Shown piece by piece: positions 1,016 to 22,165 of a DNA stretch of 42,098 nt (positions are counted from its first letter, which is position 1; each line of letters opens with the position of its first letter). The notes beneath the pieces were generated by a model that did not search any database, had not been told where the DNA came from, and saw only the letters and a program-made list of their open reading frames with translations. The DNA comes from a virus. Made by a program: the position numbers and the translations under genes. Location: IMG/VR virus record IMGVR_UViG_3300042321_001468, positions 1 through 42,098 of that record; one strand, written 5' to 3'.

Positions 1016-1429
1016 ATGAAATCGTTTTCTGCACACCTCGCCACCAACACACACAGCCCACGCCCTCGTGGCGAGTACTTTGTTAGTAGATTTACCATTA
1101 CTGGAACCGTGATCTCTGCGGTAGCCGTACACGGGCGGCTAACCAAAAACTACAGAAATAAAAAACTGTTTTGGCGGTGGCGTGTGCGTATACACACATC
1201 CGAAGGGTGGATGCTCATGGGGTATATCGGCACGAGCGAAACACGGGAAGACCTGCCTCCGCTCCGTGTGGGCGACACCGTGGAAGTACGCGACCTTGTG
1301 CTGTCCAGAACCACAGGCGGTGCTTGGGCAGAACGAAACGCAGTAGTGGGCGCACCACTAGACTACCGCTCCAACCTGTTCTCTCGCCAACTACACGGCA
1401 CGATTAAAAGGGGTACAACCACCGTATGA
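1016..1429 (+). CDS. Hypothetical protein, possibly OB-fold-like
   Basis: A 137-residue protein that I do not recognise by family. The ATG at 1016 is preferred over an in-frame TTG six bases earlier because it gives the opening MKSFSAHLA, which resembles the short N-terminal peptides of several neighbours (for example MKRFAAHITEA in the next gene). The ribosome site is weak. The middle holds a beta-rich stretch (residues about 28-110: 'FTITGTV', 'RWRVRIHT', 'VGDTVEVRDL') whose strand pattern could be an OB-fold, but no ssDNA-binding signature is visible. It overlaps the next gene by ATGA, indicating coupled translation. Function unknown. Confidence 0.55.
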   Translation: MKSFSAHLATNTHSPRPRGEYFVSRFTITGTVISAVAVHGRLTKNYRNKKLFWRWRVRIHTSEGWMLMGYIGTSETREDLPPLRVGDTVEVRDLVLSRTTGGAWAERNAVVGAPLDYRSNLFSRQLHGTIKRGTTTV

Positions 1430-1845
1430 AACGCTTTGCCGCCCACATCACCGAAGCCGCCACCGACGCAGCACGCCGTAAAAGCCGTATGGAGTCGTCC
1501 ATGAGTGCGTTCATGGAAAAGGTACGGCACAGTTCGCGTACCCACGCAGTCATTCACGCGTGGATACTAATGGAACCCGAACAGCACAGTGGCAACAGGC
1601 TTACACCTGCTTCCAGTGGCAAAACGCCTGTACACGCATGGGTGGAAGACGCTACCGATTCCCAATATGTGTACCACTACCGTGGGGAGTACTGGTGGAA
1701 TCCGTCTCGTGGTGACTGGTGGATGCGTGGGCGTACCCGTGTACACAAGAGTGACGCACGAGCGGACTGGGACAAATTGGAACGCACCGCTGTGGGCACA
1801 GGCGAGTGGAGTGACGGTGTGCTGACAGTGTTGAGTGTCAAGTAA
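1426..1845 (+). CDS. Hypothetical protein with head-targeting-like N-terminus
   Basis: A 139-residue protein starting MKRFAAHITEA. The N-terminal pattern (basic-aromatic, then ITE|A) resembles T4 internal-protein capsid-targeting sequences, which end at a prohead-protease site of the form (L/I)-x-E. The rest is rich in tryptophan and tyrosine (YVYHYRGEYWWNPSRGDWWMRG, about residues 83-104), looks like a compact domain, and is not recognised. Translation start overlaps the preceding stop (ATGA). The context of other proteins with this N-terminus suggests a virion-internal protein; this is inference. Confidence 0.55.
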   Translation: MKRFAAHITEAATDAARRKSRMESSMSAFMEKVRHSSRTHAVIHAWILMEPEQHSGNRLTPASSGKTPVHAWVEDATDSQYVYHYRGEYWWNPSRGDWWMRGRTRVHKSDARADWDKLERTAVGTGEWSDGVLTVLSVK

Positions 1846-1849
1846 AAGT

Positions 1850-2077
1850 ATGAAATGCCCCCACACATTCTTTGCCGAAGCACGGCTCGCACGCGACTCG
1901 CTTAGTGCTTTGGGTGCGGCAAACACAAACGATTTGCGGGAGTATCCGGGCGCACGGGGTGAGCGTGCCCACAAGCGGTTGCACCGTGAAATTGCTAAAG
2001 TGCTGAAGGGGCGGCTGTCCAAGACTGGAGCCGAACTTGCAGTGGGTATGAACGAAGCGCGGAGCCGTAAACACTAA
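1850..2077 (+). CDS. Small hypothetical basic protein
   Basis: A 75-residue protein (MKCPHTFFAEARLARDS...) with no recognised domain. It is rich in Arg, Ala and Lys and predicted mostly helical. A GTG at 1835 would add five residues and overlap the previous gene; the ATG at 1850 is chosen for lack of a ribosome site before the GTG, though neither start has a strong one. The 'FFAEA' at residues 7-11 could be a short protease-type site like those of its neighbours, but that is weak. Its stop codon lies inside a CTAAATA motif that probably starts transcription of the next gene. Confidence 0.45.
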   Translation: MKCPHTFFAEARLARDSLSALGAANTNDLREYPGARGERAHKRLHREIAKVLKGRLSKTGAELAVGMNEARSRKH

Positions 2078-2080
2078 ATA
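2074..2080 (+). promoter_or_regulatory. Late promoter core CTAAATA
   Basis: CTAAATA overlaps the stop codon of the preceding gene and lies 24 bases before the ATG at 2105, with a ribosome site (CAGGAGA) between. The same core recurs at a similar distance before several other starts, matching the single-element architecture of T4 late promoters (TATAAATA). Confidence 0.5.
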
Positions 2081-2104
2081 ATAAAAACAGGAGAACAACC
2101 CCAC

Positions 2105-3046
2105 ATGAACCCCATCCACAACCCCTTTTCTCGTGACGAACACCCTGATCTGACCGCTGCCATTAACGGCGTGGTGAACGGGCAACCCCGACCTGTAGAG
2201 GAAGACATCCAAACCCCTGCTCGTGAGCGGCAGATGAAGCGCAAGATGAAGGCAGCAGAACACGGCAGCGACGCAGCGTCTAGCCGCTACATTCAGGCAT
2301 GGGACGCAGAAGCCAAGTCTCCTGACACCAACCCCAAGGCAGCAAAGGCACTTCGTGCGGCTGGAGAGCGTTTCAACGCAGCAGTAAAAAAGCGAAATGC
2401 ACTGTACACCACTCAACGCAAGGAAGGCAGCAGCAAAAAGACATACGGTGTGGGCGGCAAGGTGGTGCGTGAATCCGCGTCTCCACAAGGCGGTGACAAA
2501 AAGCCGTTCAACCCATTCAACCCCACGCTGGGCGATCTGCTCCGCTCAAAGCAACAGGACAAAAAAGCACCAAAGGGCAAGCCTGTAAAGGAAGCCGTGA
2601 CACCTGCTCAACAAAAGGTGTTTGCCCGTGAACGGGAGCGGATGCTGAACGCACTCAACAACCCCAAGCAGAAACTCTCACCCACCGAGCGTGAAGCAGT
2701 GCTGGCTCGTGGGGCGCGCAATGCTGCTGCCGAAACCCGCAAAGGTGCGGTGTCACCCACTGGTGAGAAGTCACCCATCCATTCCGCAGCCAAGGCACAC
2801 CACGAGTACGCTCGTCGTGAAAGCAAGAAACTGGATGCAATAGCCAAGCGCAAGGTACAGGAAGGCGCACAACTAGACGAACGCATCATTGACGAAGTGG
2901 ATTTCTTTCAAGCGTCCAAGAATCTGCTTACAGGCAAAGGCTTCAAGACCAACCGTGAGGTGAGTGGCGCACGAGTAAACGCCAACATGGCAGCAATGCA
3001 GCGTCGTAAAGCACGAGCAGCCAAGACAGCCAAGAAAACTAAATAA
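2105..3046 (+). CDS. Lys/Arg-rich head-type protein with QTPxRE/YGxGGK module
   Basis: A 313-residue, strongly basic, low-complexity helical protein. Residues 33-45 (EEDIQTPARERQM) and 114-121 (YGVGGKVV) are shared, with similar spacing, by three other proteins in this window (starting at 3067, 16614 and the leftward gene at 22165). The remainder is Ala/Lys/Arg rich, with a probable internal processing-type sequence near the C-terminus ('RIIDEVDFF', about 260-268). There is no enzymatic signature. A good ribosome site (CAGGAGAAC) and a CTAAATA motif precede it. Composition and neighbours fit a virion core or packaged DNA-associated protein; this is inferred, and I do not recognise the family. 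Confidence 0.6.
   Translation: MNPIHNPFSRDEHPDLTAAINGVVNGQPRPVEEDIQTPARERQMKRKMKAAEHGSDAASSRYIQAWDAEAKSPDTNPKAAKALRAAGERFNAAVKKRNALYTTQRKEGSSKKTYGVGGKVVRESASPQGGDKKPFNPFNPTLGDLLRSKQQDKKAPKGKPVKEAVTPAQQKVFARERERMLNALNNPKQKLSPTEREAVLARGARNAAAETRKGAVSPTGEKSPIHSAAKAHHEYARRESKKLDAIAKRKVQEGAQLDERIIDEVDFFQASKNLLTGKGFKTNREVSGARVNANMAAMQRRKARAAKTAKKTK
3039..3045 (+). promoter_or_regulatory. Late promoter core CTAAATA
   Basis: CTAAATA overlaps the stop codon of the upstream gene. It is followed by a strong ribosome site (CAAGGAGAT) and the ATG at 3067, the same arrangement as at 2074. Confidence 0.5.
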
Positions 3047-3066: not shown

Positions 3067-3627
3067 ATGGCACGATTCAACACCAACACATTCCGTTCGC
3101 TCAACGAGAGCATTGCACGCATCCAAAACCCAATTGCTGCACTGGACGAGGCTATGGAGTACACCAGTATTCTTGAAGCAGTAATTCTTGACCTTTGCGA
3201 AGCACTAGACCTTGATCCACAGGCACTACTAGAAGACTTGCAGACTCCTGAACGAGATTACGAAATGTACTCAAGCATCCGTAAAAAGAAACAGGCAGCG
3301 GATAAGCATAGACTCAAGGCAAAAGACACATCAACGCCTGCACGCAAGCGAGCAGCGGTTGCACATAAACTCAAGGCAAAAGACGCAGCAGCGGATGCAC
3401 GCAAACTCAAGGCAACAGACGCAGCAGAAAAGGCTGACAAAGAGAATGTGTACGGCACGGGTGGCAAAGTGGTGGATACTCGTACAGCGTACAATCAGCG
3501 AGTAAATCGTAAATGGACTGCCGCAGACAAGAAAGAGTGGGCACGAACTCACTACGGTAATACGGGGCGAGAAATAGAGTACGATGACAGCAGGAGCACC
3601 ATCCCTTACAGGAATTACAAACGGTAA
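3067..3627 (+). CDS. Head-type protein, paralogue of the leftward gene at 22165
   Basis: A 186-residue protein. Residues 7-60 (TNTFRSLNESIARIQNP..., LLEDLQTPER) align almost without gaps to the protein encoded leftward at 22165-21554, so the two are paralogues. The opening TFRSLNES fits a capsid-targeting peptide ending in a prohead-protease-type site (SLNE|S). A charged linker follows with three degenerate repeats (HRLKAKD, HKLKAKD, RKLKATD; residues 81-118), then YGTGGKVV (129-136), part of the module shared with the genes at 2105 and 16614. The C-terminus is basic and Tyr-rich. It is followed by a strong terminator that has the same core as the one after the paralogue. Probably a packaged or core virion protein; function unknown. 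Confidence 0.65.
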   Translation: MARFNTNTFRSLNESIARIQNPIAALDEAMEYTSILEAVILDLCEALDLDPQALLEDLQTPERDYEMYSSIRKKKQAADKHRLKAKDTSTPARKRAAVAHKLKAKDAAADARKLKATDAAEKADKENVYGTGGKVVDTRTAYNQRVNRKWTAADKKEWARTHYGNTGREIEYDDSRSTIPYRNYKR

Positions 3628-4661: not shown

Positions 4662-5432
4662 ATGAAAGACTATTTCCAATTTATCCGTAATCTACACGAG
4701 CGTCTAGGCATTTACGATAACCCTAATGCTTTTGACCCAGCGAGTGCTGATCCTGAATCTCCTCGTGCTCGTAAACTAACACACGAATTTGATCGCAGGA
4801 TGCGTGCAGCAGGCACAAGCAAGGGGTACAAGCAAGCCCTGTCCGCAGCGTGGGCAGGAATTCGTGCCAAGCGTAAAGCAGCAGCACAAAAGCCGTCTCG
4901 TACTCCGTATCCGTGGGGCAACAAGACCAGCATTGCAGGCTGGTGGAATCCCAAACTGGAAAACTACACATTCTCGCACAGCAACGGCTACCATGTAACA
5001 CAATTGGTAAGAAACCCGTCTCGTTTCGGTATTAGTCAGCAAGAATTGTATGAAGGATTAAAAAAAGAGGGATACTACTATAATCAAAGGGGTTTGGGTT
5101 GGTACGACAAAAACGGAGACGAGCACATGTACACTGCTGAACGAGTCAAAGAGCGAATAGAAAAAGAGGACATGGATTTGGCTTACGAAGTCCAGCGTGT
5201 TGCGTACATAAAGGGTTGGCTCAAAGTGTACAGCGGTGGAGAAAAAACACCGTCTCTTGAAGGCATTGATCGCAGTTCCATTAAAGCCGCACTTCGTGAA
5301 ATACTATCCGTGCGACCAGAAATAATAGATTTGGGCGGCAGCGTAGAAATCTTTGAAGTAGGCTTGGTACGAAACACACAGAAACTCCGCTGGCTGCGTG
5401 GCAAAGAAATACTAGATTACCTGAACTCGTAA
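4662..5432 (+). CDS. Hypothetical protein with head-targeting-like N-terminus
   Basis: A 256-residue protein starting MKDYFQFIRNLHE. The ATG at 4662 is chosen over an upstream in-frame start at 4614 because AAAGGAAAA sits just before it and the upstream start overlaps the previous gene by 17 bases. The first 13 residues resemble a capsid-targeting peptide (aromatic, then hydrophobic-x-E). Residues 20-100 are charged and helical; residues 100-170 are aromatic-rich (GWWNPKLENYTF, EGYYYNQRGLGWYD); the end is helical. No known domain recognised. It overlaps the next gene by TAATG. Likely a packaged virion protein; function unknown. Confidence 0.55.
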   Translation: MKDYFQFIRNLHERLGIYDNPNAFDPASADPESPRARKLTHEFDRRMRAAGTSKGYKQALSAAWAGIRAKRKAAAQKPSRTPYPWGNKTSIAGWWNPKLENYTFSHSNGYHVTQLVRNPSRFGISQQELYEGLKKEGYYYNQRGLGWYDKNGDEHMYTAERVKERIEKEDMDLAYEVQRVAYIKGWLKVYSGGEKTPSLEGIDRSSIKAALREILSVRPEIIDLGGSVEIFEVGLVRNTQKLRWLRGKEILDYLNS

Positions 5433-5917
5433 TGCACCACGATTTCCGCTCATATCTGACTGAACTGTACGACAAGCCGTTTCGGGTTGTGAAAAAGGTG
5501 GAAGCCCCCGATCACGCTGCGTACCACTACACAGACGGTGACGAAGCCGATCCCAAAGCAGACTACTTGGTTATAAACTTTGGGTACATTCAGCCACAAG
5601 ACGAAGGTTGGGACATGGATTTTACACGCGGTGGTTCTACTGCACTCACAGGTGAAGGCAAGGCTACACAGGTGTTTGCAACAGTCATGGACGGGTTCAA
5701 ACGATTTGTTAAACGCTACGCTCCAAAAACGGTTTCATTCACCGCAGCCAAATCAGAAGTAAACGCAAAAACATATTCGTACAGTTCAGGCTCGCGTGTA
5801 AAACTGTACAACTCGCTTATCAAGCGATACGCTGCACAAGCAGGATACCGTCTTGAGTCAACAAAATCCTTGGGCATGGGGCGTGAACTGTTTGTGTTGG
5901 AGCGAATTGCCCAATGA
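5432..5917 (+). CDS. Hypothetical protein with YLTE head-targeting-like N-terminus
   Basis: A 161-residue protein starting MHHDFRSYLTEL, a close match to the next gene's MSRLQFKSYLTEA. Both fit a short targeting peptide ending at a (L/I)xE site. The C-terminal half (VFATVMDGFKRFV..., SRVKLYNSLIKRYAAQAGY) has strand-helix spacing reminiscent of GNAT acetyltransferases, but no acetyl-CoA P-loop (Q/RxxGxG/A) is evident. The same half shares a pattern with the following protein (see findings). Start overlaps the preceding stop (TAATG) and its own stop overlaps the next start (ATGA), so the three genes are translationally coupled. Function unknown; packaging is inferred. Confidence 0.55.
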   Translation: MHHDFRSYLTELYDKPFRVVKKVEAPDHAAYHYTDGDEADPKADYLVINFGYIQPQDEGWDMDFTRGGSTALTGEGKATQVFATVMDGFKRFVKRYAPKTVSFTAAKSEVNAKTYSYSSGSRVKLYNSLIKRYAAQAGYRLESTKSLGMGRELFVLERIAQ

Positions 5918-6864
5918 GCCGTCTACAGTTCAAATCGTATCTGACCGAAGCGTTTACTCGCCCTGCACCGTGGCTAGAACTCACCAAGCCCACAATATGG
6001 GGTCGGGTTGGCAAGTACGAAGACTTGATGCACCACAGGTACTTTGCAGTTAGCCGCAACGAAGGCTTGGACACCGAGATTGGTGTTGACAAGGGAAACG
6101 CAGGCAGAAAATACCACAGCGGCTACGGTGTTCCTGTACAAAGCGGTGAGCAGATGGACAAGTGGGTACAGGAAAAGGTTTCGCCGCTTCTGATTCCCCA
6201 AGGCATGTTATACTTGCCCAGTATTCAAGCCCACATTTTCCGTGTGTCGTTTGGGCACGCATTTGTGTGGGGCGAGAACAAGGGCAGCGAAATTCGTCCA
6301 CTCGTGACAGCAGACGGTAAACGGATATACGAATTGTCTTTTGCCCGTCTAGCGTTTCCTGTCCATTTGGACAAGATAAGCGGACACTACTACTGGTCAG
6401 ACGAACACATTGCGGACTGGAACACTAGTAACGATTTTGTGGACAACGATGTGGGCGACCTGAACCCACGCCAGTCCATCGGGGTGTTTGGCACGGTGAT
6501 AGAGATTGCCAAAGCGTTTACCCGCCGACCTGATTTTGGTGGGCTACTGTTTGGTCGCAAGCAGGACGCTAAATCGTCTCGTGGGCGCATCTACGGTGGG
6601 CTAGCCCAACGGGTGGGTGCGTCTATTGGGCTAAAGTCCTACGAATTCCCACAGGGTGATCGCCATTTCAGCGATATGGGCGGGCCGAGCACAGACACGG
6701 TGCTGGTGGTGAAAAGCAAAAGTATTTACGACGAGTGTGTGGCTATTGCAGACGAAGCGTCCCGAGCACAACGGGGCGTGGACTCTATGGTTGCAGGGCT
6801 ACAAGCGTATGGTGCGTCGCTGAACAAGCCTAAATATAAACCCATACAACAAATCAAATATTAA
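5914..6864 (+). CDS. Hypothetical protein with YLTE head-targeting-like N-terminus
   Basis: A 316-residue protein starting MSRLQFKSYLTEAF. After the targeting-like peptide there is a mixed alpha/beta domain. Around residues 187-235 the pattern 'VFGTVIEIAKAF ... SRGRIYGGLAQRVGASIGL' parallels 'VFATVMDGFKRF ... SRVKLYNSLIKRYAAQAGY' in the preceding protein, suggesting a shared domain after duplication. The final about 60 residues are helical. The first ATG overlaps the previous stop (ATGA). No catalytic motif I can name. It ends the coupled trio that starts at 4662. Confidence 0.55.
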   Translation: MSRLQFKSYLTEAFTRPAPWLELTKPTIWGRVGKYEDLMHHRYFAVSRNEGLDTEIGVDKGNAGRKYHSGYGVPVQSGEQMDKWVQEKVSPLLIPQGMLYLPSIQAHIFRVSFGHAFVWGENKGSEIRPLVTADGKRIYELSFARLAFPVHLDKISGHYYWSDEHIADWNTSNDFVDNDVGDLNPRQSIGVFGTVIEIAKAFTRRPDFGGLLFGRKQDAKSSRGRIYGGLAQRVGASIGLKSYEFPQGDRHFSDMGGPSTDTVLVVKSKSIYDECVAIADEASRAQRGVDSMVAGLQAYGASLNKPKYKPIQQIKY

Positions 6865-8251: not shown

Positions 8252-10111
8252 ATGAGCGACCAATACAAGAGTCTACGCACAGTAATCCTTGAACTTCAAG
8301 CAGCACCCGTAAAAACAGGGCACAAAGAGCGAGAAGTGTGGAAGACCGCTAGTGGTCACTACGGTGCAAAGAATCCATCTGGAACCGTGGACTACTTTGA
8401 TGACGAGCAAAAAGCAAAGGTGTACTCAAAAGGACAGGGACGCGGTGGCAGCGTGGATCACGGCACAGTTGACTCTTCTCGGGAAGTGTCACTAGATCAA
8501 GACGGGTACGCAAAAGACAAGACTGTGGATCAAAAGCAAAAACCACAGGCACAGGCTGCTGAAGCACCTGCTCCCGCTGCTGCATCTCAAGCCAAACCAC
8601 AAGCAGCACCACAACAAGGCAAGCCCGCAGATCAGCCCACCAAAACCGCTAAAGATCAACCACAGCCTGAAGAAGAGCATCCTGATGTAGCCGCAGAAGA
8701 CCCACAAACAGTTTTTGATGCAGCGTTTCGTGAAGACCCTGTGGGCAGCGGAAAACTAAAACCTGATATTCGCAAGGCTAATGTGGTAGCCAATGCTATC
8801 AAAACCGAAACCTTTGCTGGCCCACGAGACGACAGCGAATCCGTATTCGGTGACGCAAACGCAGAAAAACAATTCACCGATGAAATGAACCACGCAGCAC
8901 TTGCTGCTCTGCGTGGGCAAAAAGTGATTGACTTTGAGTTGTGTGACAAGATGTTTTCTCAAGTTGGTTTCTGCTACGACCGCAAGGGTGAAAAGACCAC
9001 AAAGGGTATTGTGCGTAAAGAGATGCCGCAATTCTCTTCACAGGTTGATCCCAAGAAGCCTGATTCGCCTGCATTCAAGGCTCTCATGGCAGGCAAGGGA
9101 TACACTAGTCCTGAACAAGTAACTCCCGAAGACTTGAAACTAGAAGTCAACATGGAGAAGGCGTATCAGGAAGCACTCAAAGACGCAGGCTACGAGATCA
9201 ACGATCAGGAAGTGGATGCCACTTCACTCAAGCCTATTCAGGGTGAACTACTAGGCTCCAAAGTTGCAGCCATGTACGGCACACTCGTAGCCGCACAGCA
9301 AGACCCACAAAACTACGGCAAGGCTGCTGCTCGCCTGCTTGAACCCATCTATGTAAGCGACGGCTATGTGATTGACGGGCATCACCGTTGGGCAGCACAA
9401 TGTGCAGTAGATATTGCAAACGGTCAAGGCACAAATGCCAAGATGAGAACCCGAACCATTACCAAGGGTGGCAAGGCAGTACCTATTGATGAAATTATCC
9501 AGTTCTCAAACAAGTTCCAACAGGATGCAGGACTAATGAGCCAAAGCCGCTCGGGTGCAACTGTGGGTGAGAAGCCAAAGGAAGAAAAGAAGGAGAAGCC
9601 CATGAAAGAAGGATTCGTAGACCCCCGTTCGTCTCGTGAGCGTTTGGTTGAGTCGCTGCTTGAAGCCGTAAAGGTAAAGCGTGATCGCAACCCACAACTA
9701 GGAACCATTGGCTACGGTGTAGACACCGATGACCCTGCACGATTCGTGGGATCAAACAAACCACTCAAGACTCGCAAGACTGATGCAATGGGCAACCTGC
9801 TTCCCAAGCCAAGCGCAAAGGGGTGGAAGGCAAGCGCAGCAGCCACAGGTAATGCCATTGAGATGGCACAGCAACTCATTGCCACCATGAACATCAAGCC
9901 CGCAGGCACAAAGTTTGAAGTGTACGGAGAGAAAAACGGTAAGCCGTATACACTCAAGGTCAAGAAGATCAAGAAGATGGGCATAGATACTTACGAGACT
10001 GCTGGTAGCCGAGAGGTTGAACTCAAAGCAGCAGGCACAGGGCTACAGGTTCTAGACAAGCGTACCCGCAAAATTGTACTAGATCGTGGCAACGACATGT
10101 TGTGGGACTAA
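8252..10111 (+). CDS. Multi-module protein with ParB-like GHHRW domain
   Basis: A 619-residue protein. Residues 25-70 hold a small domain ('VWKTASGHYGAKNPSG'). Residues about 95-150 are a Pro/Gln/Ala linker. Residues about 300-430 contain 'EPIYVSDGYVIDGHHRWAA' with GHHRW at 376-380, the core of ParB/sulfiredoxin-like domains, which in ParB binds CTP and in other members acts on nucleotides or DNA. After a Lys/Glu linker comes 'RERLVESLLEA' (about 465-475), a possible processing site, then a C-terminal domain (about 485-619) ending in beta-rich sequence. The size and linkers suggest a virion polyprotein. ParB-like fold is moderately supported; activity is unknown. Confidence 0.6.
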   Translation: MSDQYKSLRTVILELQAAPVKTGHKEREVWKTASGHYGAKNPSGTVDYFDDEQKAKVYSKGQGRGGSVDHGTVDSSREVSLDQDGYAKDKTVDQKQKPQAQAAEAPAPAAASQAKPQAAPQQGKPADQPTKTAKDQPQPEEEHPDVAAEDPQTVFDAAFREDPVGSGKLKPDIRKANVVANAIKTETFAGPRDDSESVFGDANAEKQFTDEMNHAALAALRGQKVIDFELCDKMFSQVGFCYDRKGEKTTKGIVRKEMPQFSSQVDPKKPDSPAFKALMAGKGYTSPEQVTPEDLKLEVNMEKAYQEALKDAGYEINDQEVDATSLKPIQGELLGSKVAAMYGTLVAAQQDPQNYGKAAARLLEPIYVSDGYVIDGHHRWAAQCAVDIANGQGTNAKMRTRTITKGGKAVPIDEIIQFSNKFQQDAGLMSQSRSGATVGEKPKEEKKEKPMKEGFVDPRSSRERLVESLLEAVKVKRDRNPQLGTIGYGVDTDDPARFVGSNKPLKTRKTDAMGNLLPKPSAKGWKASAAATGNAIEMAQQLIATMNIKPAGTKFEVYGEKNGKPYTLKVKKIKKMGIDTYETAGSREVELKAAGTGLQVLDKRTRKIVLDRGNDMLWD

Positions 10112-10112: not shown

Positions 10113-10658
10113 ATGAAAGACTTCAAGGACTTACGAGATCACGCATTCAACTCACTTCAGAGATTATTCTTTGAAGAGTTTGATGCTGAACTCACCGAAA
10201 GCAAAATAGTTCTTGATATGCCTAATTTTGATCGTGAAGATGTGATTGCGTATCTTGACGAAGAAGGCATTGAGTGGGAAGAAAAAGACGGCGTGATTGA
10301 GATTCTTGATCCTGTGGAGCAAGCAGATATTGATGTGGAAATTGAAGCCGAAGAAGACGAAGAGATTGAAGAATCGGTTGAAGTGCAAACCGAAATGATT
10401 AACGAGGCTGCTGCTCGTCGCAAGATCGTGGTTCGTAAAGGCAAGAAGCGAATCATTTTCAAGTGCGGACCGGGCATGATGAAAAAGGGCGCAAGAGTGT
10501 GTGTGCGACGACCGGGTTCTCAACTACGCAAACTCAAGATGCGCTCCAAGCGGTCTGCTCGCAAGGCTCGTTCCAAGCGTAATGTGGCTAGAAGACGGCG
10601 TAAAATTTCTATGCGTAAACGGCTCTCGTTCGGCTTGCGTCCACGCAAGCGCAAGTAA
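10113..10658 (+). CDS. Acidic-prodomain / basic-peptide precursor, probable head DNA-binding protein
   Basis: A 181-residue protein split in charge. Residues 1-98 are strongly acidic (a run of Asp/Glu at 70-92) and residues 100-181 are extremely basic (Arg/Lys clusters to the end). The junction is MINEA (95-99), fitting a prohead-protease-type cleavage site; a second candidate is AELTES (25-30). The basic part has two cysteines (C118, C130) around 'GPGMMKKGARVC'. The pattern suggests a scaffold-like propeptide that neutralises a DNA-condensing peptide until capsid maturation. I chose the ATG at 10113; a GTG at 10086 would overlap the preceding gene and has no support. The architecture is seen; the processing is inferred. 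Confidence 0.65.
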   Translation: MKDFKDLRDHAFNSLQRLFFEEFDAELTESKIVLDMPNFDREDVIAYLDEEGIEWEEKDGVIEILDPVEQADIDVEIEAEEDEEIEESVEVQTEMINEAAARRKIVVRKGKKRIIFKCGPGMMKKGARVCVRRPGSQLRKLKMRSKRSARKARSKRNVARRRRKISMRKRLSFGLRPRKRK

Positions 10659-12404: not shown

Positions 12405-13622
12405 ATGAATTCCTTTATTCCCTTTCTAGCCGAATCCCTGAAAAGCACAGGGGGCAAGAATGTACATTTAGAGCATCTTGAAGACGAAATCTTCAACAGC
12501 GGTTTTGCAGGCTTCTCAAAAGCAATGAACTCTCTGCGTGGTGTGGTGCAGTCTCTACACGGCAATGAAACCGTGCCATACGATATTTCAGTCAAGTGGG
12601 ACGGTGCGCCTGCTGTCATCATGGGCATCAACCCCGAGAACGGCAAGTTTTTTGTGGGCACAAAGAGTGTGTTCAACAAGACACCCAAGATTAACTACAC
12701 CGATGCAGACATTAATGCCAACCATCCTGCTGACGGGCTGAACGCCAAACTCAAACTGGCACTCAAGTATTTCAAGACACTCCGCATCAAAACCATTCTG
12801 CAAGGCGATCTGCTGTTTGACAGCGAGACACGCAAGACTGAAACCATTGACGGCAAGCGGTACATTACATTCCAGCCCAACACCATCAAGTACGCGGTTG
12901 ATCCGCAGTCCCATTTGGGCACACGAATCGGAGGAGCCAAGATTGGTATTGTGTTCCACACCGAATACGGTGGTGACAGCATGGCTGATCTGCGTGTTGT
13001 GCGGTTCAACCCTTCACTTGAAGGACTAGCCAAAAGCAAAACCGTATGGTACGACAACGCCACCTACCGATTCTCTCGTGGTGACGGCTTGTTTACCACC
13101 AAAGATATTGCACACATCAATACCCAAATAGACGATATTATTCGTGAGGGTATTGGGTTGCGAGCAGTAATGAACGGGCTAGCCAAAAACACAGCAGTTG
13201 TAGCCGAGATCAAGATGTATTTCAACAGCATTATCCGTAGCGGCCGCGAACTAGGCGATACCAATGAACTGCTAACATTCCTGTCTGCTAAAGTGGATGC
13301 CAAGCGTAAAGAACGAAAAACCAAAGTTCCTGCCAAAACACCAACCCCAACACTGGATTATGTGCGTAACAACCGCAACCAAATCAATCGGCTGTTCACG
13401 CTACATAATCGTGTAGCACAGATCAAGAAGTATGTGCTAGGCAAATTGGGAACCCTGTCCACAGAGTTTGGAACATTTGTGCAGAAGGGTGACAAGTATG
13501 TGGCAACAGTTCCCGAAGGGTTTGTTGCAATAGATCGTTTGAGTAACGATGCGGTGAAATTAGTTGATCGCATTGAGTTTTCAAAGGCTAACTTCACGAT
13601 TTCCAAATCGTGGAAACAGTAA
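12405..13622 (+). CDS. Putative covalent nucleotidyltransferase (ligase-like) with head-targeting-like N-terminus
   Basis: A 405-residue protein. It starts MNSFIPFLAES, a close match to a T4-type capsid-targeting peptide with an LAE|S cleavage site. Residues 62-70 (SVKWDGAPA) carry KWDG (64-67), the K-x-D-G motif I of DNA/RNA ligases and capping enzymes, in which the Lys is adenylylated. Further candidates are 'ILQGDLLFD' (131-139, motif III-like), 'IGIVFHTEYGG' (180-190), 'PEGFVAI' (370-376, motif IV-like EGxV) and 'AVKLVDR' (383-389, motif V-like). I recall related T4-like phage proteins grouped as a domain of unknown function (DUF6267); the ligase link is my reading. The start at 12405 is chosen over an upstream in-frame codon inside the preceding gene. 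Confidence 0.6.
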   Translation: MNSFIPFLAESLKSTGGKNVHLEHLEDEIFNSGFAGFSKAMNSLRGVVQSLHGNETVPYDISVKWDGAPAVIMGINPENGKFFVGTKSVFNKTPKINYTDADINANHPADGLNAKLKLALKYFKTLRIKTILQGDLLFDSETRKTETIDGKRYITFQPNTIKYAVDPQSHLGTRIGGAKIGIVFHTEYGGDSMADLRVVRFNPSLEGLAKSKTVWYDNATYRFSRGDGLFTTKDIAHINTQIDDIIREGIGLRAVMNGLAKNTAVVAEIKMYFNSIIRSGRELGDTNELLTFLSAKVDAKRKERKTKVPAKTPTPTLDYVRNNRNQINRLFTLHNRVAQIKKYVLGKLGTLSTEFGTFVQKGDKYVATVPEGFVAIDRLSNDAVKLVDRIEFSKANFTISKSWKQ

Positions 13623-13664: not shown

Positions 13665-14948
13665 GTGGCTAAATCTATAAAGGATACACGACGAAGCAAA
13701 ACTATTGTAGTTGCTTTCGGTCGTTTTCAGCCACCAACTTCGGGACACCAACTCCTTTTCAACAAGGTGGTAGACACGGCACACAAAATGGGAGCAGATC
13801 ACGCGATTGGGTTTAGTCGCAGTCACGATCCCAAAAAGAATCCGTTGTCGCCATCTCGTAAATATTTTTGGTTGAAACGCCTATTCCCGGGAGTACATTT
13901 TTTAAACTCTGAAAAGATAAAGACCCCATTTGATCTGCTGTACACGCTTGCAGAGATGGGGTACGAGCATGTGGTGTTTGTGGGTGGCGAAGATCGCAGC
14001 GAAGACTACGATGACAAAAACATCCGTAAACTAATGAAGCACTCTGATCCTAAACGCCGACTAAAACTAAAGCGTTACGATTTCGTCATGGCAGGCAAGC
14101 GTGATCCCAAAGCAACAGGTGTGCAGGGCATGAGTGCCAGCAAGATGCGAGCCGCTGCCGAACAAGACAACAAGAAATCGTTTGCACAAGGAATGCCGTC
14201 TGCTGCGAGTCGTGACGATACTGTTCGCCTGTTTGATGAACTACAGCGTGGAATGCGTAAGGGCATGAAAGAAGAGTTTGACTTTACTGAACTGTACCAT
14301 ACCGCTGCTGCCAATATTATTGAAAGCGACAAGAACAAGCGTCGCCCACCCACACCCGGTCAGACAGGTGGATTCTCCAAGCACAACACACAGTTCCCAA
14401 CCCCACCGTGCAAGATTGACGAAGACTTGGGTGATTGGTTCAAGCAGAAGTGGGTAAACATTGGTGGCAAGCGTGATCCAAAAACTGGAGAGTACCCCCC
14501 GTGTGGTCGCAAGAGTGCCAGCGAAGGCGGTTCGTACCCCAAGTGCCGACCTATGCGTAAGGTGGGCAAGACTCCTGAAACTGTGGGCGAGATGTCACCC
14601 AAGGAACGCAAGGCTGCTGTGTCACAAAAGCGACGAGCAGAATCCAAAGCGTCCAAGAGCGGCAAGGGCAACAAGCCTGTAATGACCAGCCACAAGTCTT
14701 TAGAAGAGGACTCGTCGTGCCCACGCACTCCGCAAAACAATGCTGAAAACACATGGGTAGCAGTAAAGGGCGGCAAGGTATATTTTTATATTGGTCGGTG
14801 CAGCCAGCCGTATCAAATATTCGGCAACGACGCAGTTTCAGCCATCCGTTACGGGGAAGAAATCTATGTAACACTCCGTAACGGCAAAACCGCTATTTAC
14901 CGAATAAACAACGGGCGAACGGTTTACGGTCCCGTCCGCATGACCTGA
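13665..14948 (+). CDS. HxGH-type nucleotidyltransferase fused to Cys-containing phage domain
   Basis: A 427-residue protein. Residues 13-28 (TIVVAFGRFQPPTSGH) are the nucleotidyltransferase signature with a TSGH version of (H/T)xGH. 'SASKMR' at 157-162 is the second signature (I-S-x-T/S-x-x-R) that binds the triphosphate in NMNAT and cytidylyltransferase families. Residues about 245-340 hold 'PPCGRKSASEGGSYPKCRP' plus basic sequence, resembling a domain I recall from many phages (DUF5872-like, unconfirmed). Residues 365-427 form a small beta domain. The start is GTG, with a very strong ribosome site (GGGAGGTGA). The substrate could be NMN, a CTP-activated alcohol or another small molecule. 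It sits directly after the ligase-like gene. Confidence 0.7.
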   Translation: MAKSIKDTRRSKTIVVAFGRFQPPTSGHQLLFNKVVDTAHKMGADHAIGFSRSHDPKKNPLSPSRKYFWLKRLFPGVHFLNSEKIKTPFDLLYTLAEMGYEHVVFVGGEDRSEDYDDKNIRKLMKHSDPKRRLKLKRYDFVMAGKRDPKATGVQGMSASKMRAAAEQDNKKSFAQGMPSAASRDDTVRLFDELQRGMRKGMKEEFDFTELYHTAAANIIESDKNKRRPPTPGQTGGFSKHNTQFPTPPCKIDEDLGDWFKQKWVNIGGKRDPKTGEYPPCGRKSASEGGSYPKCRPMRKVGKTPETVGEMSPKERKAAVSQKRRAESKASKSGKGNKPVMTSHKSLEEDSSCPRTPQNNAENTWVAVKGGKVYFYIGRCSQPYQIFGNDAVSAIRYGEEIYVTLRNGKTAIYRINNGRTVYGPVRMT

Positions 14949-15002: not shown

Positions 15003-16607
15003 ATGGACTCTGCTATCAAATCAAAACTTCAAACCCTGTTGCGCCTTGGTCTAGTGTCACAAAACAATGTGCGTCGTGCTATGACCATGTTCCAAGACCC
15101 AGAGAAGTACAGCAAGAGTCCTGCTTACCGCACTCTCATGCAGGAACTAATGGTGGATGTGGTGGACAAGATTGTGAACAACCGTGCCATGTACACCGCA
15201 CTACGCTCCAGCCTGACCAAAGACAAGGGCGTAAAGGAAGCAGACGAAACCATTGCTGCCACCACACAAAAGATTGGTGAAAGCGTTGAAACAGATCGTA
15301 CCACAACCCTGCTGCGTAGTGGACTGGTTGACAAGACCCAAATCACCGCTGCTCGCAAAGCACTAAAGTCCAAGAGCAATCTCAAGCAAATGAGCATGGG
15401 CAAGGTGTACCGTGAAATGATGATTAATATGCTAGACAGCCTTGTAAAGAAGATTACAGGTAGCCCTGCCCTGTTCAACGCTTTCAAGTTCACTATGGGC
15501 AAGGAAGGCAAGATTGAAGAGGCGTTTGACGGTGGAGACACAGACATTATTGCGCTGTTTGATCTGCACGAAGACGCACAAGAAATCCTTGAAGCCAACA
15601 AGCCCACCAATCCGTCTCTGTGGTCAAAAGCCAAGAGCATGGCAAGAAGCAAGTTTGATGTGTACCCGTCTGCGTATGCCAACGGATGGGCAGTCAAGTG
15701 GTACAACTCCAAGGGTGGCGGTTGGAAGAGCGTGAGCGAAGGCAAGACTTTCTTCCAGTTTGCAAATGATCTTGAAGAAGCCCTGACTCCTGCTCGTAAG
15801 GCAGTGATTGATCGTGAACGCAAGAAGGCTTCCGAAACCATGAATCGTGCTAGCACTCCTACACCTGAACGCAACAAGGCATACGCTCGTGGCTCACGAG
15901 TCAACTACCTTGAACTCAAGGGACTAGCAAACAAGTCTGACAAACAAGGCAGTGATTATCAGATCAACAAGCGTGAACACGCCAAGTGGCGTAAGACTGA
16001 AAAGAGCATGAAAGAAGAAACCCAAAGACTTGATGAGGTATCTCCACCAGACATGGAGCACATGACTGGTTCCAAGAACGCCAAGGCTTCGTTCACCAAG
16101 CAGTACGGCAAGCGTGGCAAGAGCGTGATGTACGCCACTGCATGGAAACTCCACAACAAGAACAAGAAGAAGCGCGAAGTCAAGGAAGAGATTGAACAGA
16201 TTGACGAGTTGAGCAAGGCGACCAAGGACTCGTATGTTGCCAAGCGTGGCTCACAACTCTCGTCCATGATGTACGGTTCTGGAAAGCACTACGCTTCGCT
16301 CACAGGCAGACAGCAAAAGAATGCCGTGAAGGGCATCAAGCGAGCCACAGGTGTCAAGGAAGAAGCCGAGCAGATTGACGAGTTGAGCAAAAAGACCCTT
16401 GCCTCGTATGTGCAAAAGGCACACGATTCCCAATCAGAAAAAGAGTTTCTGAAGGGACACAGCATGGGCAAAAAGTATCAGGCAGCAAGAGAAGCAGAGA
16501 AAAGAGGCGTGTCTACCCCACCAAGCAAAAAGACACCACTAGACAAAAAGTACAAAAATCGTGAGATGGGAATCGGTCGCGCACTAAAGCGTCTCCAAAA
16601 GGACTGA
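15003..16607 (+). CDS. Multi-module virion polyprotein with duplicated N-terminal domain
   Basis: A 534-residue, Lys-rich protein built from modules. Residues about 10-75 and 98-172 are two copies of one helical domain ('LLRLGLVSQNNVRRA' / 'LLRSGLVDKTQITAA' ... 'MYTALRSSLTKDKG' / 'LFNAFKFTMGKEGK'). Residues about 204-240 (SLWSKAKSMARSKFDVYPS..., YANGWAVKWY) are a small module familiar to me from many phage proteins. Residues about 340-380 hold 'DEVSPPDMEHMTGSKNAKAS'. Two modules follow that begin EQIDELSKATKDSYV and EQIDELSKKTLASYV (about 399 and 458). The repeated E-x-I-D-E-L could be prohead-protease sites that release small basic modules. There is no enzyme signature. A packaged polyprotein is inferred. 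Confidence 0.6.
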   Translation: MDSAIKSKLQTLLRLGLVSQNNVRRAMTMFQDPEKYSKSPAYRTLMQELMVDVVDKIVNNRAMYTALRSSLTKDKGVKEADETIAATTQKIGESVETDRTTTLLRSGLVDKTQITAARKALKSKSNLKQMSMGKVYREMMINMLDSLVKKITGSPALFNAFKFTMGKEGKIEEAFDGGDTDIIALFDLHEDAQEILEANKPTNPSLWSKAKSMARSKFDVYPSAYANGWAVKWYNSKGGGWKSVSEGKTFFQFANDLEEALTPARKAVIDRERKKASETMNRASTPTPERNKAYARGSRVNYLELKGLANKSDKQGSDYQINKREHAKWRKTEKSMKEETQRLDEVSPPDMEHMTGSKNAKASFTKQYGKRGKSVMYATAWKLHNKNKKKREVKEEIEQIDELSKATKDSYVAKRGSQLSSMMYGSGKHYASLTGRQQKNAVKGIKRATGVKEEAEQIDELSKKTLASYVQKAHDSQSEKEFLKGHSMGKKYQAAREAEKRGVSTPPSKKTPLDKKYKNREMGIGRALKRLQKD

Positions 16608-16613: not shown

Positions 16614-18278
16614 ATGATTAAGAAGCAAGGCAACAAGTTTGTAGTAACGAACAAGGCAGGCACTAAAGTATTGGGAACACATCCGTCCAAGGAAAAGGCA
16701 CAGAAGCAACTCGCAGCAATTGAAATATCAAAGGCAAAACACATGCACGAAAACAAATCATTCAAGTCGTTCCGTAGCACTCTTAACGAGAGCGAGTACA
16801 GCGAAGTTCTAACAGGTTACGGCAACCGCTCTGCTCACAAGGACGATGCAGGTTTGCACCACCTACAGTCTGCGGGTGCTCTTGCTGGTATTAATGCCAT
16901 GCTTGCCACCATCAGCAAGGGCACTTACCTTGATCCCAACGAAGCGTTCCTCAAGATGAAGGTGCGTCTCAATGTGGTGCAACTAGACTTCCCGTGGAAG
17001 CCCCGTTCATGGGACGGTGGCGTGGGTTCGTTTGATATTCCTGTGGTGCAGTTTGGTCGCGTTGACGGCTACGACGCACAGACAGGACAGATTCGCTTTG
17101 ACGGCAAGGCTAACCCCACAGGCGGCTACACCGAACTAAATCTGCATGTTGAGGTTGGACTAAACGCGGATTCGCTGTACACCGTGAGTGCCAAACTAAC
17201 TCCTGCCGTGCCTGTAGCGGAAGAGGTTGAAGTTGCAGAAGACTACCAGACTCCTGCTCGTGAACGGGAAATGGATCGCAAAATAGCCAAACACGATGAT
17301 GCTGCTGATAGTGCGTACAGAACTAGAATGACCAAATACGGCAAAGTTGCTGATCGTGCCTCTAAATCAGAAGACAAGCACGACAAGGCAATTGCTCGTC
17401 TTCTCAAGCGTTCCCAAAAAGAACAAGAGTCGTCCCGTACTTACGGTCGTAGCGGCAAACTTGTAAAGCGTGGTAGCCGTGCAGAGGTAAAGGAAGAGAT
17501 GGAGCAGATTGACGAAGCAGGCGCAGCCAAACTGGCTCGTATGGGATACGCATACGACCGCGCACGAGTCGGTGCTCGTGGTGTTCTGAATCCCGAGCGC
17601 AAAAAGCAAATGGGTGATGCGTACTACAAGCAGCGTGAAAAGGTAGAAGCCAACAAAGCCAAGCGAGTTGCAGCAGGCAAATTTGACAAGGGGCGTGAAC
17701 TAGAAGCCCTCCACAAGAAGTACGAAATTCGTCGTGCTAAAAATACCGTAAAGGAAGCACTCATTGGCGGTCAGAAGAAACTAGACCTGAACAAGAACAA
17801 GCGTCTTGACTCACAAGACTTTGCCATGCTTCGTGCCAAGAAAAAGTCGGTAAAAGAAGAAGCCCTTGTCGGCGGTCAGAAGAAACTAGACCTGAACAAG
17901 AACAAGCGTCTTGACTCACAAGACTTTGCCATGCTTCGTGCCAAGAAGAAGGCTATGAGCGAAGCCAAGAAGCCCATGATTAAGATTGGTCTAAACCCCA
18001 ACAAGAAAATTGGTTACGAGGTTGCTTCAATCGGAGCAGGTGGCAAGAAGACTGTAGAGAAGTCTGTTGACTACACCATGCCCCATGTGAGGCGCGACAC
18101 CACCAAGAAGGGTGTAAACGAAGCGAAAATGAAAACATGGAGTCCCCGCTTGGACAGACTAATGGCAAATCGTGACGCGATTCGCAGCAGACCCAAGAAG
18201 AGCATCCTGACCCAAAAAGTACAGGACGGCAAGAAGATTGGTGCTGCTCGCCCAATAGCCAAGTACGAGGGCAAGTGA
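16614..18278 (+). CDS. Multi-module virion polyprotein with two EF-hand-like loops
   Basis: A 554-residue protein. Residues 1-40 (KQGNKFVVTNKAGTKVLGTH...) form a small beta-alpha module. Residues 44-60 (MHENKSFKSFRSTLNES) look like an internal head-targeting peptide, so translation from M44 is also possible. Residues 110-200 form a beta domain. QTPARE (212-217) and YGRSGKLV (277-284) are the module shared with the genes at 2105, 3067 and 22165. EMEQIDEA (295-302) is a candidate cleavage site. Residues 385-410 and 420-445 are near-identical repeats containing DLNKNKRLDSQD, an EF-hand/dockerin-like calcium loop. The C-terminus is basic. It overlaps the next gene (GTGA). Probably a packaged polyprotein. 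Confidence 0.6.
   Translation: MIKKQGNKFVVTNKAGTKVLGTHPSKEKAQKQLAAIEISKAKHMHENKSFKSFRSTLNESEYSEVLTGYGNRSAHKDDAGLHHLQSAGALAGINAMLATISKGTYLDPNEAFLKMKVRLNVVQLDFPWKPRSWDGGVGSFDIPVVQFGRVDGYDAQTGQIRFDGKANPTGGYTELNLHVEVGLNADSLYTVSAKLTPAVPVAEEVEVAEDYQTPAREREMDRKIAKHDDAADSAYRTRMTKYGKVADRASKSEDKHDKAIARLLKRSQKEQESSRTYGRSGKLVKRGSRAEVKEEMEQIDEAGAAKLARMGYAYDRARVGARGVLNPERKKQMGDAYYKQREKVEANKAKRVAAGKFDKGRELEALHKKYEIRRAKNTVKEALIGGQKKLDLNKNKRLDSQDFAMLRAKKKSVKEEALVGGQKKLDLNKNKRLDSQDFAMLRAKKKAMSEAKKPMIKIGLNPNKKIGYEVASIGAGGKKTVEKSVDYTMPHVRRDTTKKGVNEAKMKTWSPRLDRLMANRDAIRSRPKKSILTQKVQDGKKIGAARPIAKYEGK
17766..17947 (+). repeat. 77-base perfect direct repeat, two copies 105 bases apart
   Basis: Bases 17766-17842 and 17871-17947 appear identical by eye. 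They encode the two copies of the GGQKKLDLNKNKRLDSQDFA module in frame (35 residues per unit). Perfect identity including third codon positions indicates a recent tandem duplication or ongoing gene conversion. Confidence 0.85.
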
Positions 18279-18867: not shown

Positions 18868-19083
18868 ATGAAGCGACTCAAACGGTTTGCACAGTTCATG
18901 GAACAGGACGGTGGCTTGCCCACCTCCGCTCCCACAAATATAACAGGGGCAGATCGTATTGCAGGCACAGGCAGCGATATTCCTCCCGTATCTCCCAAGA
19001 AGCGGTTTAATATTTTAAAGAGGAAGACCGCTAAACTCATAAATAATAAGGTGATTGAAAACACTGATTTAGAAAGGAAGTGA
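18868..19083 (+). CDS. Small hypothetical protein with head-targeting-like N-terminus
   Basis: A 71-residue protein starting MKRLKRFAQFMEQDGG, with aromatic-hydrophobic spacing like other targeting-type peptides (FAQFMEQ). The middle is Pro/Ser/Gly/Thr-rich and probably disordered; the C-terminus is basic. Ribosome site AGGAG is seven bases before the ATG. ATAAATA at 19039-19045 lies within its coding sequence and could promote the next gene. Function unknown. Confidence 0.5.
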   Translation: MKRLKRFAQFMEQDGGLPTSAPTNITGADRIAGTGSDIPPVSPKKRFNILKRKTAKLINNKVIENTDLERK

Positions 19084-20401: not shown

Positions 20402-20424
20402 TATTTAGGGAACCTGACTAAATA
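20402..20424. promoter_or_regulatory. Divergent CTAAATA pair between resolvase and coiled-coil gene
   Basis: CTAAATA occurs on the minus strand at 20408-20402 and on the plus strand at 20418-20424, inside a 48-base divergent gap. The plus copy is 20 bases before the ATG at 20445, with AAAGGAGG between. The minus copy ends five bases from the resolvase ATG, too close for a normal leader. Confidence 0.45.
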
Positions 20425-20444
20425 CGGTAAAGGAGGATTCAATA

Positions 20445-20660
20445 ATGATTCCAGAAAACAATGCAGAAAATTACAATGAAACTGTGCTGATCCCTCTGTT
20501 GGAAAAGAAGGTACACGCTCTGACTAGCAGCGTGATTCTAGCCGAAGCCAAACTAGAGATTGCCAACAAGGAAAAGGCTGAACTACAGAAGCAGTTGGAC
20601 GCAGCACAGGCAGCAGCACAGTCTGTGCCTGTGACTGATGTGCTAGACGAAGGGGACTAA
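20445..20660 (+). CDS. Small coiled-coil hypothetical protein
   Basis: A 71-residue protein (MIPENNAENYNETVL..., ending TDVLDEGD). Residues 12-60 form a strong predicted coiled coil (LEKKVHALTSSVILAEAKLE..., EKAELQKQLDAAQAAAQ). Preceded by AAAGGAGG, the best ribosome site in this part of the window, and by CTAAATA. It is a lone rightward gene between two leftward genes and converges with the protease gene 13 bases later. Function unknown; a small structural or assembly protein is possible. Confidence 0.55.
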   Translation: MIPENNAENYNETVLIPLLEKKVHALTSSVILAEAKLEIANKEKAELQKQLDAAQAAAQSVPVTDVLDEGD

Positions 20661-20672
20661 ACCCCATCGCAT

Positions 20673-21437
20673 CTATAACGGGTTTCCTGATAACTCTAGA
20701 ACTACTGCTCGCACCCACTCCGCTACAAGGTCTACCCGAGTAGCGGAGTTTTCATATATGGTAGAGTCTTTGGTGGCTAGTGAGGAAATGATTCCAACCA
20801 GCACGCCCCTGCTGTTCAGGACTGCGCCGCCTGAATCGCCAAAATACAGGGTTCCGTTGATTGGCAGCATTTTGAATACTGTGGGTTCTTCAATCAGGGT
20901 TCCGTAGTACCAAAACACATCAGGATTGCTACGGCGTTTGTAGCCTCCACCAAAACCAATCAGAGTAAGCGACTCGCCTTGAATGTATCGGTTACTTTTG
21001 CCCATGATGGGAACAGGAGTAACAGGGCAGTTACGCTCAAGCAGCCCAACTGCTGCGTCTTGGAACAAGCGATCCCCAATTTTGTATTTGGGGTGCATAC
21101 GGTAGTCCACAATCTTGTACGATTCGCACCCCACCACGAACAGGTCAGCGTCACCGTCTTCCATGCAATGCCCTGCGGTAATGAAAACATTGGGTGCAAT
21201 AAGTACTGCACTACCAATTTCAGAGCCATCGGCTTTGGCAAGCATACCAACTGCCAATTCCTCTGTTTGCTCGTCCAGTAGGGAAAAGCCGCCCATGAAC
21301 CACGGAAGGTGTGTAGCGGGAATCCCTACTGGAGTTTTTTCCTGTGGTGTGTCGTATACCGACACCGATGCCTCGTCACATGCCCCGAAGAGTAGTGAGA
21401 GGGCCAGCAGAAGAGATGGAACATAGCCTCTCTGCAT
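20673..21437 (-). CDS. Trypsin-like (S1) serine protease with lipoprotein signal
   Basis: A 254-residue protein from the ATG at 21437. Residues 1-20 (MQRGYVPSLLLALSLLFGAC) form a signal peptide ending in a lipobox-like FGAC, with Asp at +2, which in enteric bacteria favours retention in the inner membrane. The catalytic triad of the S1 family is complete: H90 in 'FITAGHC', D127 in 'FQDAAVGLL' and S202 in 'FGDSGGAV'. A GTG at 21464 would add nine residues before the signal and is less likely. A secreted trypsin-like protease is unusual in a phage. It could be a lysogenic-type or infection-stage periplasmic enzyme, or acquired from a bacterium. The residues are seen; localisation and role are inferred. 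Confidence 0.8.
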   Translation of the reverse strand: MQRGYVPSLLLALSLLFGACDEASVSVYDTPQEKTPVGIPATHLPWFMGGFSLLDEQTEELAVGMLAKADGSEIGSAVLIAPNVFITAGHCMEDGDADLFVVGCESYKIVDYRMHPKYKIGDRLFQDAAVGLLERNCPVTPVPIMGKSNRYIQGESLTLIGFGGGYKRRSNPDVFWYYGTLIEEPTVFKMLPINGTLYFGDSGGAVLNSRGVLVGIISSLATKDSTIYENSATRVDLVAEWVRAVVLELSGNPL

Positions 21438-21496
21438 ACAAATATCTAGCCCACCCACCAACACAAAAATGTTGGAATTTCTTGAAGGTTTGTGCT

Positions 21497-21523
21497 AAAA
21501 GAAAAACCCCCTTGCGGGGGTTT
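21497..21523 (-). terminator. Rho-independent terminator
   Basis: On the minus strand, AAACCCCC-GCAA-GGGGGTTT followed by TTCTTTT ends the transcript of the gene at 22165-21554. The core is identical to the plus-strand terminator at 3645-3679 that follows the paralogous gene. Confidence 0.85.
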
Positions 21524-21553
21524 GGTGTGTGGGATCGGTTTTCAGCCTTCCAT

Positions 21554-22165
21554 TCAGTCACCGTACTCTGGGCCACGCCCGCCTGTGTAGGGACCACGCC
21601 GATGTGCTGCGTCTTCATAGCCTTGCATCTGTGCGTGATGATCCCGATCTCCTGCCCGACTCCTGTGCCATGCTTCGCTTTCTCTTTTCTGCCGTGCGTG
21701 TCGTTCAGCATCGGCTCGCTTTTTGGCACCCATATCCTGTTTGCGCTTCATGGCTCGCTTGTGGTCTTCTGATCCCTTGCGGACAGGCTTGCCGCCCTTG
21801 CCGTAAACGGTCTTTGACTTTTGTTCCTTGCGATGACGATCCTCCGCTGATTGAAGTTCCGCGTCAGCCTTTACTTGTCTTTCCCTTGCTGCTTTGCCTT
21901 TGGTCTGGTTACGGAGGCGAGTCGCCCAGTCTCCTGCACGGCGCGACAGTTTCCGCAGATTCTTTTCGCTTTCCGCTTCGCGTTCTGGTGTCTGGATGTC
22001 TTCCAGCAGGGCATTAGGATCAAGTTCTAGTTCTTCACATAGAGCCAACAGCACTGTTTCTAGCAGTTCGTTGTACTCCATAGCCTCATCCAAAGCGGCT
22101 TGTGGGTTTTGGATGCGTGCAATGCTCTCGTTGAGCGAACGGAATGTGTTGTGGTTGGTTCTCAT
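21554..22165 (-). CDS. Head-type protein, paralogue of the gene at 3067
   Basis: A 203-residue protein. Residues 6-60 (NTFRSLNESIARIQNP..., LLEDIQTPERE) are nearly the same as in the rightward gene at 3067-3627. It has the same SLNE|S targeting-type site, the QTPERE motif (58-63) and YGKGGKPV (121-128). After the shared parts the sequence diverges: here a charged helical linker and a His/Arg/Gly/Tyr-rich tail (about 145-203). It has its own late-type promoter, a strong ribosome site (AGGAGATTA) and a terminator, so it forms a self-contained unit. It is separated from its paralogue by 18 kb and lies on the opposite strand. A virion-core or packaged role is inferred. Confidence 0.65.
   Translation of the reverse strand: MRTNHNTFRSLNESIARIQNPQAALDEAMEYNELLETVLLALCEELELDPNALLEDIQTPEREAESEKNLRKLSRRAGDWATRLRNQTKGKAARERQVKADAELQSAEDRHRKEQKSKTVYGKGGKPVRKGSEDHKRAMKRKQDMGAKKRADAERHARQKRESEAWHRSRAGDRDHHAQMQGYEDAAHRRGPYTGGRGPEYGD

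Follow-up and report, generated by a model that had tools for sequence, protein, structure and literature searches.

We have found that a virus record of 42,098 bases (IMGVR_UViG_3300042321_001468, positions 1 to 42,098, analysed whole and referred to here as the window) encodes a set of otherwise different proteins that begin with the same short peptide, and that this N-terminal tag is very probably a capsid-targeting sequence of the type that bacteriophage T4 uses to load cargo into its head. The first-pass annotation of this DNA had proposed such a role, and the proposal is supported by a spacing of key residues equal to that of the T4 internal protein IPIII, by a gp21-type protease in a syntenic relative, by the occurrence of the tag on 25 unrelated protein bodies and by tagged enzymes in the virions of related phages. 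The peptides that it quoted are all present at the genes to which they were assigned, and the tags differ considerably in how well they are preserved.

Experiments on T4 IPIII have established that targeting depends on residues 4 and 7 and processing on residues 8 and 10 (PMC9026906). T4 IPII and IPIII both begin with MKTYQEFIAE followed by A or S, and we defined a strict motif with the T4 spacing as [FYW]xx[FYH][LI]xE, that is, an aromatic residue, two residues of any kind, F/Y/H, L/I, any residue and E. Four window proteins, all encoded on the plus strand, carry this motif at the N-terminus. Gene 1426-1845 (139 residues, no known family) opens with MKRFAAHITE (1426..1455) and then A in the spacing of IPIII, and no homologue of it was found among nine relatives searched. 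Gene 5432-5917 (161 residues) opens with MHHDFRSYLTE (5432..5464) and then L, and its product has a GNAT acetyltransferase-like fold with SpeG as the best PDB structural match (probability 1.00, TM 0.47). Gene 5914-6864 (316 residues), a distant paralogue of 5432, opens with MSRLQFKSYLTE (5914..5949) and then A, and gene 12405-13622 (405 residues), which encodes a ligase-like DUF6267 protein, opens with MNSFIPFLAE (12405..12434) and then S. When the key residues are placed at positions 4, 7, 8 and 10, genes 1426 and 12405 are exact and genes 5432 and 5914 are shifted by 1-2 residues, while 4662 and 18868 conform only via their orthologues and 3067, 22165 and 16614 do not conform. The list of tagged proteins in the first-pass annotation thus holds in strict form for 1426, 5432, 5914 and 12405, in part for 4662 and 18868, and only weakly for 3067, 22165 and 16614.

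No near DNA match to the window was found among known phages. DUF6267 matches occur in phages of the T4 superfamily, including Kyanoviridae cyanophages, Pelagibacter phage HTVC008M, Methylophilales phage Melnitz and Stenotrophomonas phage DLP6. The 147-kb relative G001 (locus L006), a virus record whose completeness is not stated, has a DUF6267 protein 81% identical to that of the window within a syntenic gene cluster, and it encodes a gp21-type prohead protease (Peptidase_S77, E 5e-42) adjoined by genes that we judge from sequence and gene order to be gp22- and gp23-like. Genes were called with a simple custom script, so some starts may be off, and conservation was used to fix starts where relevant. 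Pfam and PHROG annotation returned few matches for most proteins of the cluster.

Published virion proteomes of related cyanophages indicate that tagged enzymes can reach the mature particle. The motif had already been set, on the basis of T4 and the window, when these proteomes were first consulted; the exact anchoring length was chosen later. In S-CREM2, whose virion list comprises 52 proteins (PMC10665884), the strict motif marks gp6 (an S-adenosylmethionine (SAM) hydrolase), gp12 ("Cas9"), gp14 (a kinase) and gp154 (a cytidylyltransferase), which are all of the detected non-structural enzymes except two large "endolysins" whose genes lie among those of the baseplate. The strict motif is present in 4/52 detected versus 1/164 undetected proteins, the latter being one weak match (p=0.013), and a relaxed motif is present in 7/52 versus 4/164 (p=0.005). 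The LxE element alone was rejected as a predictor of virion presence (14/52 versus 29/164, not significant). We also observed that gp12 (L099 7704-10313) has no Pfam match and only an HNH-like stretch by eye, and its "Cas9" label is doubtful. The virion-detected NMNAT proteins of S-SZBM1 (MRFRQFIIEA) and S-SCSM1 (MKSFLQFLKEA) are tagged as well, and homologues of the window NMNAT-like protein encoded at 13665 are both tagged and virion-associated in S-CREM2, S-SZBM1 and S-SCSM1. Additionally, an S-CRM01 kinase begins with MISFDQFLSE and is reported in the virion, as cited in PMC10665884. The DUF6267 protein of S-SZBM1 is untagged and is missing from the virion list of that phage. Over the three complete genomes the anchored motif occurs in 5/127 detected versus 4/593 undetected proteins, a difference whose p value stands at 0.011 because some tagged small proteins went undetected. 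This whole-genome count supersedes a Fisher test made earlier on portions of two genomes (p 1e-4), which was dropped because tagged undetected genes lay outside the parts covered.

A number of observations weigh against a capsid-targeting role. The undetected tagged proteins are small, with S-SZBM1_191, S-SZBM1_192 and S-SCSM1_30 among them, and three of them come from S-SZBM1, whose virion list has only 30 proteins. Virions purified on caesium chloride (CsCl) can carry contaminant proteins, as the S-CREM2 authors point out. The virion evidence comes from related phages and none of it from this virus, and the literature covered reports no cleaved N-terminus for any of these tagged proteins. 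The 42-kb window, a fragment without head genes, lacks gp21, and the protease is seen only in G001. Finally, genes 5432 and 5914 and two genes of G001 share one cluster and resemble each other beyond the tag, which amounts to partial paralogy.

The alternative that best survives is that the tag docks core or assembly factors on the scaffold or capsid, and that these are degraded or lost rather than carried to the host. T4 gp22, gp67 and gp68 are core proteins that are cut by gp21 and mostly lost, and the several small tagged proteins missing from virion lists would fit such a fate. However, tagged SAM lyase, kinase and NMNAT persist in the mature virions of relatives and have no obvious use in assembly, and we consider this alternative unlikely. 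Abundant infection proteins can also enter CsCl preparations, and modelling gives a short helix for the tag region, so one could suppose that the tag is an amphipathic helix addressed to another destination, such as a replication compartment, a membrane or the tail, with the virion detections reflecting contamination. This is very unlikely, since the fixed Glu, the small residue next to it and the exact T4 spacing lead one to expect processing by a protease, for which a docking helix has no need, and since the replication proteins expected from contamination are missing from the S-CREM2 virion list.

Common ancestry offers a further account, in which the shared N-terminus is merely the ancestral start retained by duplicates of one family. 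It can draw on the partial paralogy noted above, and on the paralogy of 3067 and 21554, but the bodies behind the tag argue otherwise. Upon removal of the tag, 139 tagged proteins fall into 25 unrelated clusters that include an S-AdoMet lyase (PF23780), a protein kinase, an NMNAT that carries a zeta/AAA_33 kinase domain and a phosphatase resembling HAD and polynucleotide kinase (PNK) proteins, besides the ligase-like and GNAT-like folds of the window; an S-CRM01 gene beginning with MKTFDEFLTE is annotated as an acetyltransferase. The tagged bodies are basic, with a median isoelectric point of 9.5 versus 6.2 for untagged proteins (p = 2e-5 when each cluster is represented by a single protein). 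An alignment of N-termini across homologues, as suggested in the first-pass annotation, gave a clear result for 56 DUF6267 proteins, in which only positions 4 (F/Y/L), 7 (Y/F/H), 8 (L/I) and 10 (E in 54/54) of the first 11 columns are fixed, together with the residue after the Glu (S/A/G in 52/54). What is conserved is these positions and no whole ancestral stretch; a gappy linker follows, and then a near-invariant body from K18/N19. Residues 1-23 of the modelled window protein have pLDDT below 50 and are predicted to be disordered. In family A3, to which gene 5432 belongs (28% identity), F5, L9 and E11 of the tag are three of only eight invariant columns. As it is already largely apparent that one tag precedes distinct folds, ancestry alone is a highly improbable explanation.

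Chance matching to a loose motif can be dismissed for the four strict cases, for although LxE alone is common and chance could still account for 3067, 22165 and 16614, the full motif is found at 20-fold over expectation. Within the first 22 residues the strict motif occurs in 3 called window genes versus 0.19 expected, the true window count being 4 because the gene caller set the 12405 start too early, and in 7 N-termini of G001 versus 0.46 expected. Six consecutive neighbouring genes of G001 (108-112 kb) all match when one position is relaxed. Among 80 related loci the motif is present in 124/989 called proteins versus 5.8 expected (approximately 20-fold), and it starts at residue 3 or 4 in 104/124 of the matching proteins. 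At the DNA level, a pattern set at a fixed distance from the ATG gave 43 matches in 31 related records versus 2 for a reversed control; it matched exactly gp61.1, IPII and IPIII in T4 and gave 0 matches in the non-T4 phages SPO1, phiKZ and N4. Staphylococcus phage G1 has three such matches, one of them with an in-frame stop. The suggestion that this locus is unusually rich holds in part, in that the window and G001 exceed the three matches of T4, but similar clusters exist elsewhere, for example five matches to the DNA pattern within 8.9 kb in L048.

Taking this evidence together, we infer with good support that the tagged proteins are packaged in this virus, and by analogy with T4 they may also be cleaved and injected. 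During prohead assembly the aromatic residues at positions 4 and 7 would draw each protein into the scaffold core, and a prohead protease of the gp21 family would then cut after (L/I)xE to free the basic protein, which would be enclosed with the DNA and would probably enter the host with it. The window cargo would comprise at least four proteins, namely the ligase-like DUF6267 protein, the two GNAT-like proteins, which are related to each other, and the protein of no known family encoded at 1426, with a further two or three window proteins carrying partial tags. T4-related viruses of this type probably introduce several enzymes together with their DNA, because the tagged enzymes of related phages include those found in virions by published mass spectrometry. 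T4 Ip1, Ip2 and Ip3, whose route the window cargo would share, each inhibit specific Type IV restriction enzymes (PMC12373910), so that a role of the window cargo in first-contact host take-over or counter-defence is a reasonable guess.

The proposed ligase-like domain is supported at the level of motifs. Gene 12405 matches PF19782 (DUF6267) with E 5e-100, and the ligase motifs K64-W-D-G67, Q133-G-D135, E371-G-F-V374 and K385-L386 are invariant in 56 sequences. DNA ligases rank 1 and 2 among its structural matches, albeit weakly (E 0.05, TM 0.20), and a comparison with PDB sequences found no relative. We thus describe DUF6267 as putatively ligase-like by its motifs, with weak support from its fold. 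A tagged HAD/polynucleotide-kinase-like phosphatase gene lies just downstream of tagged DUF6267 in many loci, among them L031, L039, L042, L049, L050 and L057, an arrangement that suggests an end-repair pair. The NMNAT/cytidylyltransferase-like protein downstream of DUF6267 in the window (13665..14948, plus strand; phrog_3041, E 8e-41) is untagged. We considered an either-or sharing of the tag between DUF6267 and NMNAT, which is contradicted by L018, where both are tagged.

Additional window proteins carry incomplete forms of the tag. Gene 4662-5432 (256 residues) starts with MKDYFQFIRNLHE (4662..4700, plus strand) and gene 18868-19083 (71 residues) with MKRLKRFAQFMEQ (18868..18906, plus strand), and in both the targeting half is kept and the cleavage half is altered. 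The G001 orthologue of 4662 has the canonical MKDIFAFLKE followed by A. For 18868, F-x-x-F is kept in 6/6 relatives found and E at the P1 position in some only, the L007 orthologue having the canonical FSKFISE followed by E. Gene 1016-1429 (137 residues), overlooked by the first-pass annotation, starts with a peptide that has the targeting half only (MKSFSAHLAT, 1016..1045, plus strand), and its G001 homologue begins with MKGFSNYLTE. These three genes share the build of T4 IPI (MKTFKEFTSTTT...STITE), which has F4 and F7 and a later ITE. The paralogous genes 3067-3627 and 21554-22165 both contain TFRSLNE, a weak variant in which the second aromatic residue is missing (FRSLNE at 3091..3108 on the plus strand and at 22127..22144 on the minus strand). 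The internal variant FRSTLNE of gene 16614-18278 (residues 53-59; 16770..16790, plus strand) lies away from the N-terminus, and the L003 orthologue starts right at this peptide (MKENKAFKDFRKALNES). We rejected TFRSLNE as a second class of tag as it shows no enrichment, with single matches in the loci and in G001 and none in S-CREM2, although a similar start, TFNSLSEA, is seen in S-SCSM1_89, which is annotated as a virion protein. A 619-residue protein (8252..10111, plus strand; phrog_2859) with a DGHHRW ParB-like motif seen by eye has a conserved aliphatic variant, LRTVILE, that is a relaxed match only.

Comparison with known systems places this tag closest to the T4 route. The likeness to IPI-III covers residues 4, 7, 8 and 10 and their spacing, the small residue after the Glu, unrelated basic bodies and, in G001, a gp21-family protease, while the differences are that the cargo here includes enzymes, that G001 has its six tagged genes in a row and that packaging here is deduced by analogy. 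We found no homology to the bodies of IPII and IPIII, both singletons in the clustering, and IPI, which is without the strict motif, lies outside the clustering. T4 Alt, an injected ADP-ribosyltransferase, is likewise an enzyme packaged by an N-terminal propeptide cut by gp21, but its start (MELITELFDE) fits the motif only loosely, and the proteins scanned revealed no ADP-ribosyltransferase family. The virion NMNAT, kinases and SAM hydrolase of S-CREM2, S-SZBM1, S-SCSM1 and S-CRM01 have the same tag, and their NMNAT is homologous to the window protein at 13665, which differs in being untagged beside a tagged DUF6267 neighbour. SPN3US and phiKZ also have many head proteins that are processed by a prohead protease and ejected, but their propeptides differ from the tag, and phiKZ has no match to the tag pattern.

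T4 itself yielded two further observations. T4 gp61.1 (NC_000866 18966-19130, L092; 54 residues) starts with MKTFKEFIKE followed by D, a near-perfect IPII/IPIII tag that makes it a candidate additional internal protein of T4. Residues 59-66 of the gene 23 product (L095 25945-27510) contain the tag-like FGSFLTE followed by A at the reported propeptide end near residue 65, a pattern that hints that the gp21 recognition site may be longer than LxE.

The remaining features of the window concern its other proteins. A QTPxRE module with a later YGxxGKxV recurs in otherwise different basic proteins (2105-3046, 3067-3627, 16614-18278 and 21554-22165). The KEExEQIDELSK-type repeats in 15003-16607 and 16614-18278 match protease sites of the LxE type, and these proteins might thus be cut more than once; the KEExEQIDEL motif, considered as a source of extra protease sites, is absent from the S-CREM2, S-SZBM1 and S-SCSM1 proteins scanned. 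The product of 10113-10658, which is conserved in relatives, is acidic in its first half and extremely basic, with many Arg and Lys residues, at its C-terminus, and is possibly a DNA-binding head protein. Adjoining the cluster on the minus strand, 20673-21464 encodes a serine-protease-like protein, predicted to be secreted, that contains GDSGG and has a signal- or lipobox-like start. On the tail-fibre side, also on the minus strand, 25440-27233 joins a sulfotransferase-like N-terminus to a glycosyltransferase-like region and 27261-29465 encodes a protein of repeats resembling RCC1 repeats.

The targeting mechanism is already known from T4, and its extension to enzymes of Kyanoviridae-type phages is the part that appears to be new. 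The authors who described virion enzymes in cyanophages offered no packaging mechanism and left contamination undecided, and we found no link between the T4 tag and such enzymes in the open-access literature searched. More tentatively, and with somewhat less than even confidence, we propose that the tag serves Kyanoviridae-like marine and freshwater relatives of T4 as a general means of loading a kit of several enzymes, which acts in the host before phage gene expression begins. Such a kit would include the ligase-like DUF6267 protein, NMNAT with a P-loop kinase domain, HAD phosphatase, acetyltransferases, SAM lyase and protein kinases, and, if the proposal is true, it might for example repair nucleic-acid ends and blunt restriction. 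The tag would provide a sequence rule, scannable across genomes, for the puzzle of why NMNAT, kinases and SAM hydrolase occur in cyanophage virions. N-termini alone would then predict head-carried proteins among the uncharacterised proteins of abundant aquatic T4-like viruses, and the proteins named here would be candidate first-response proteins for tests against host defence.

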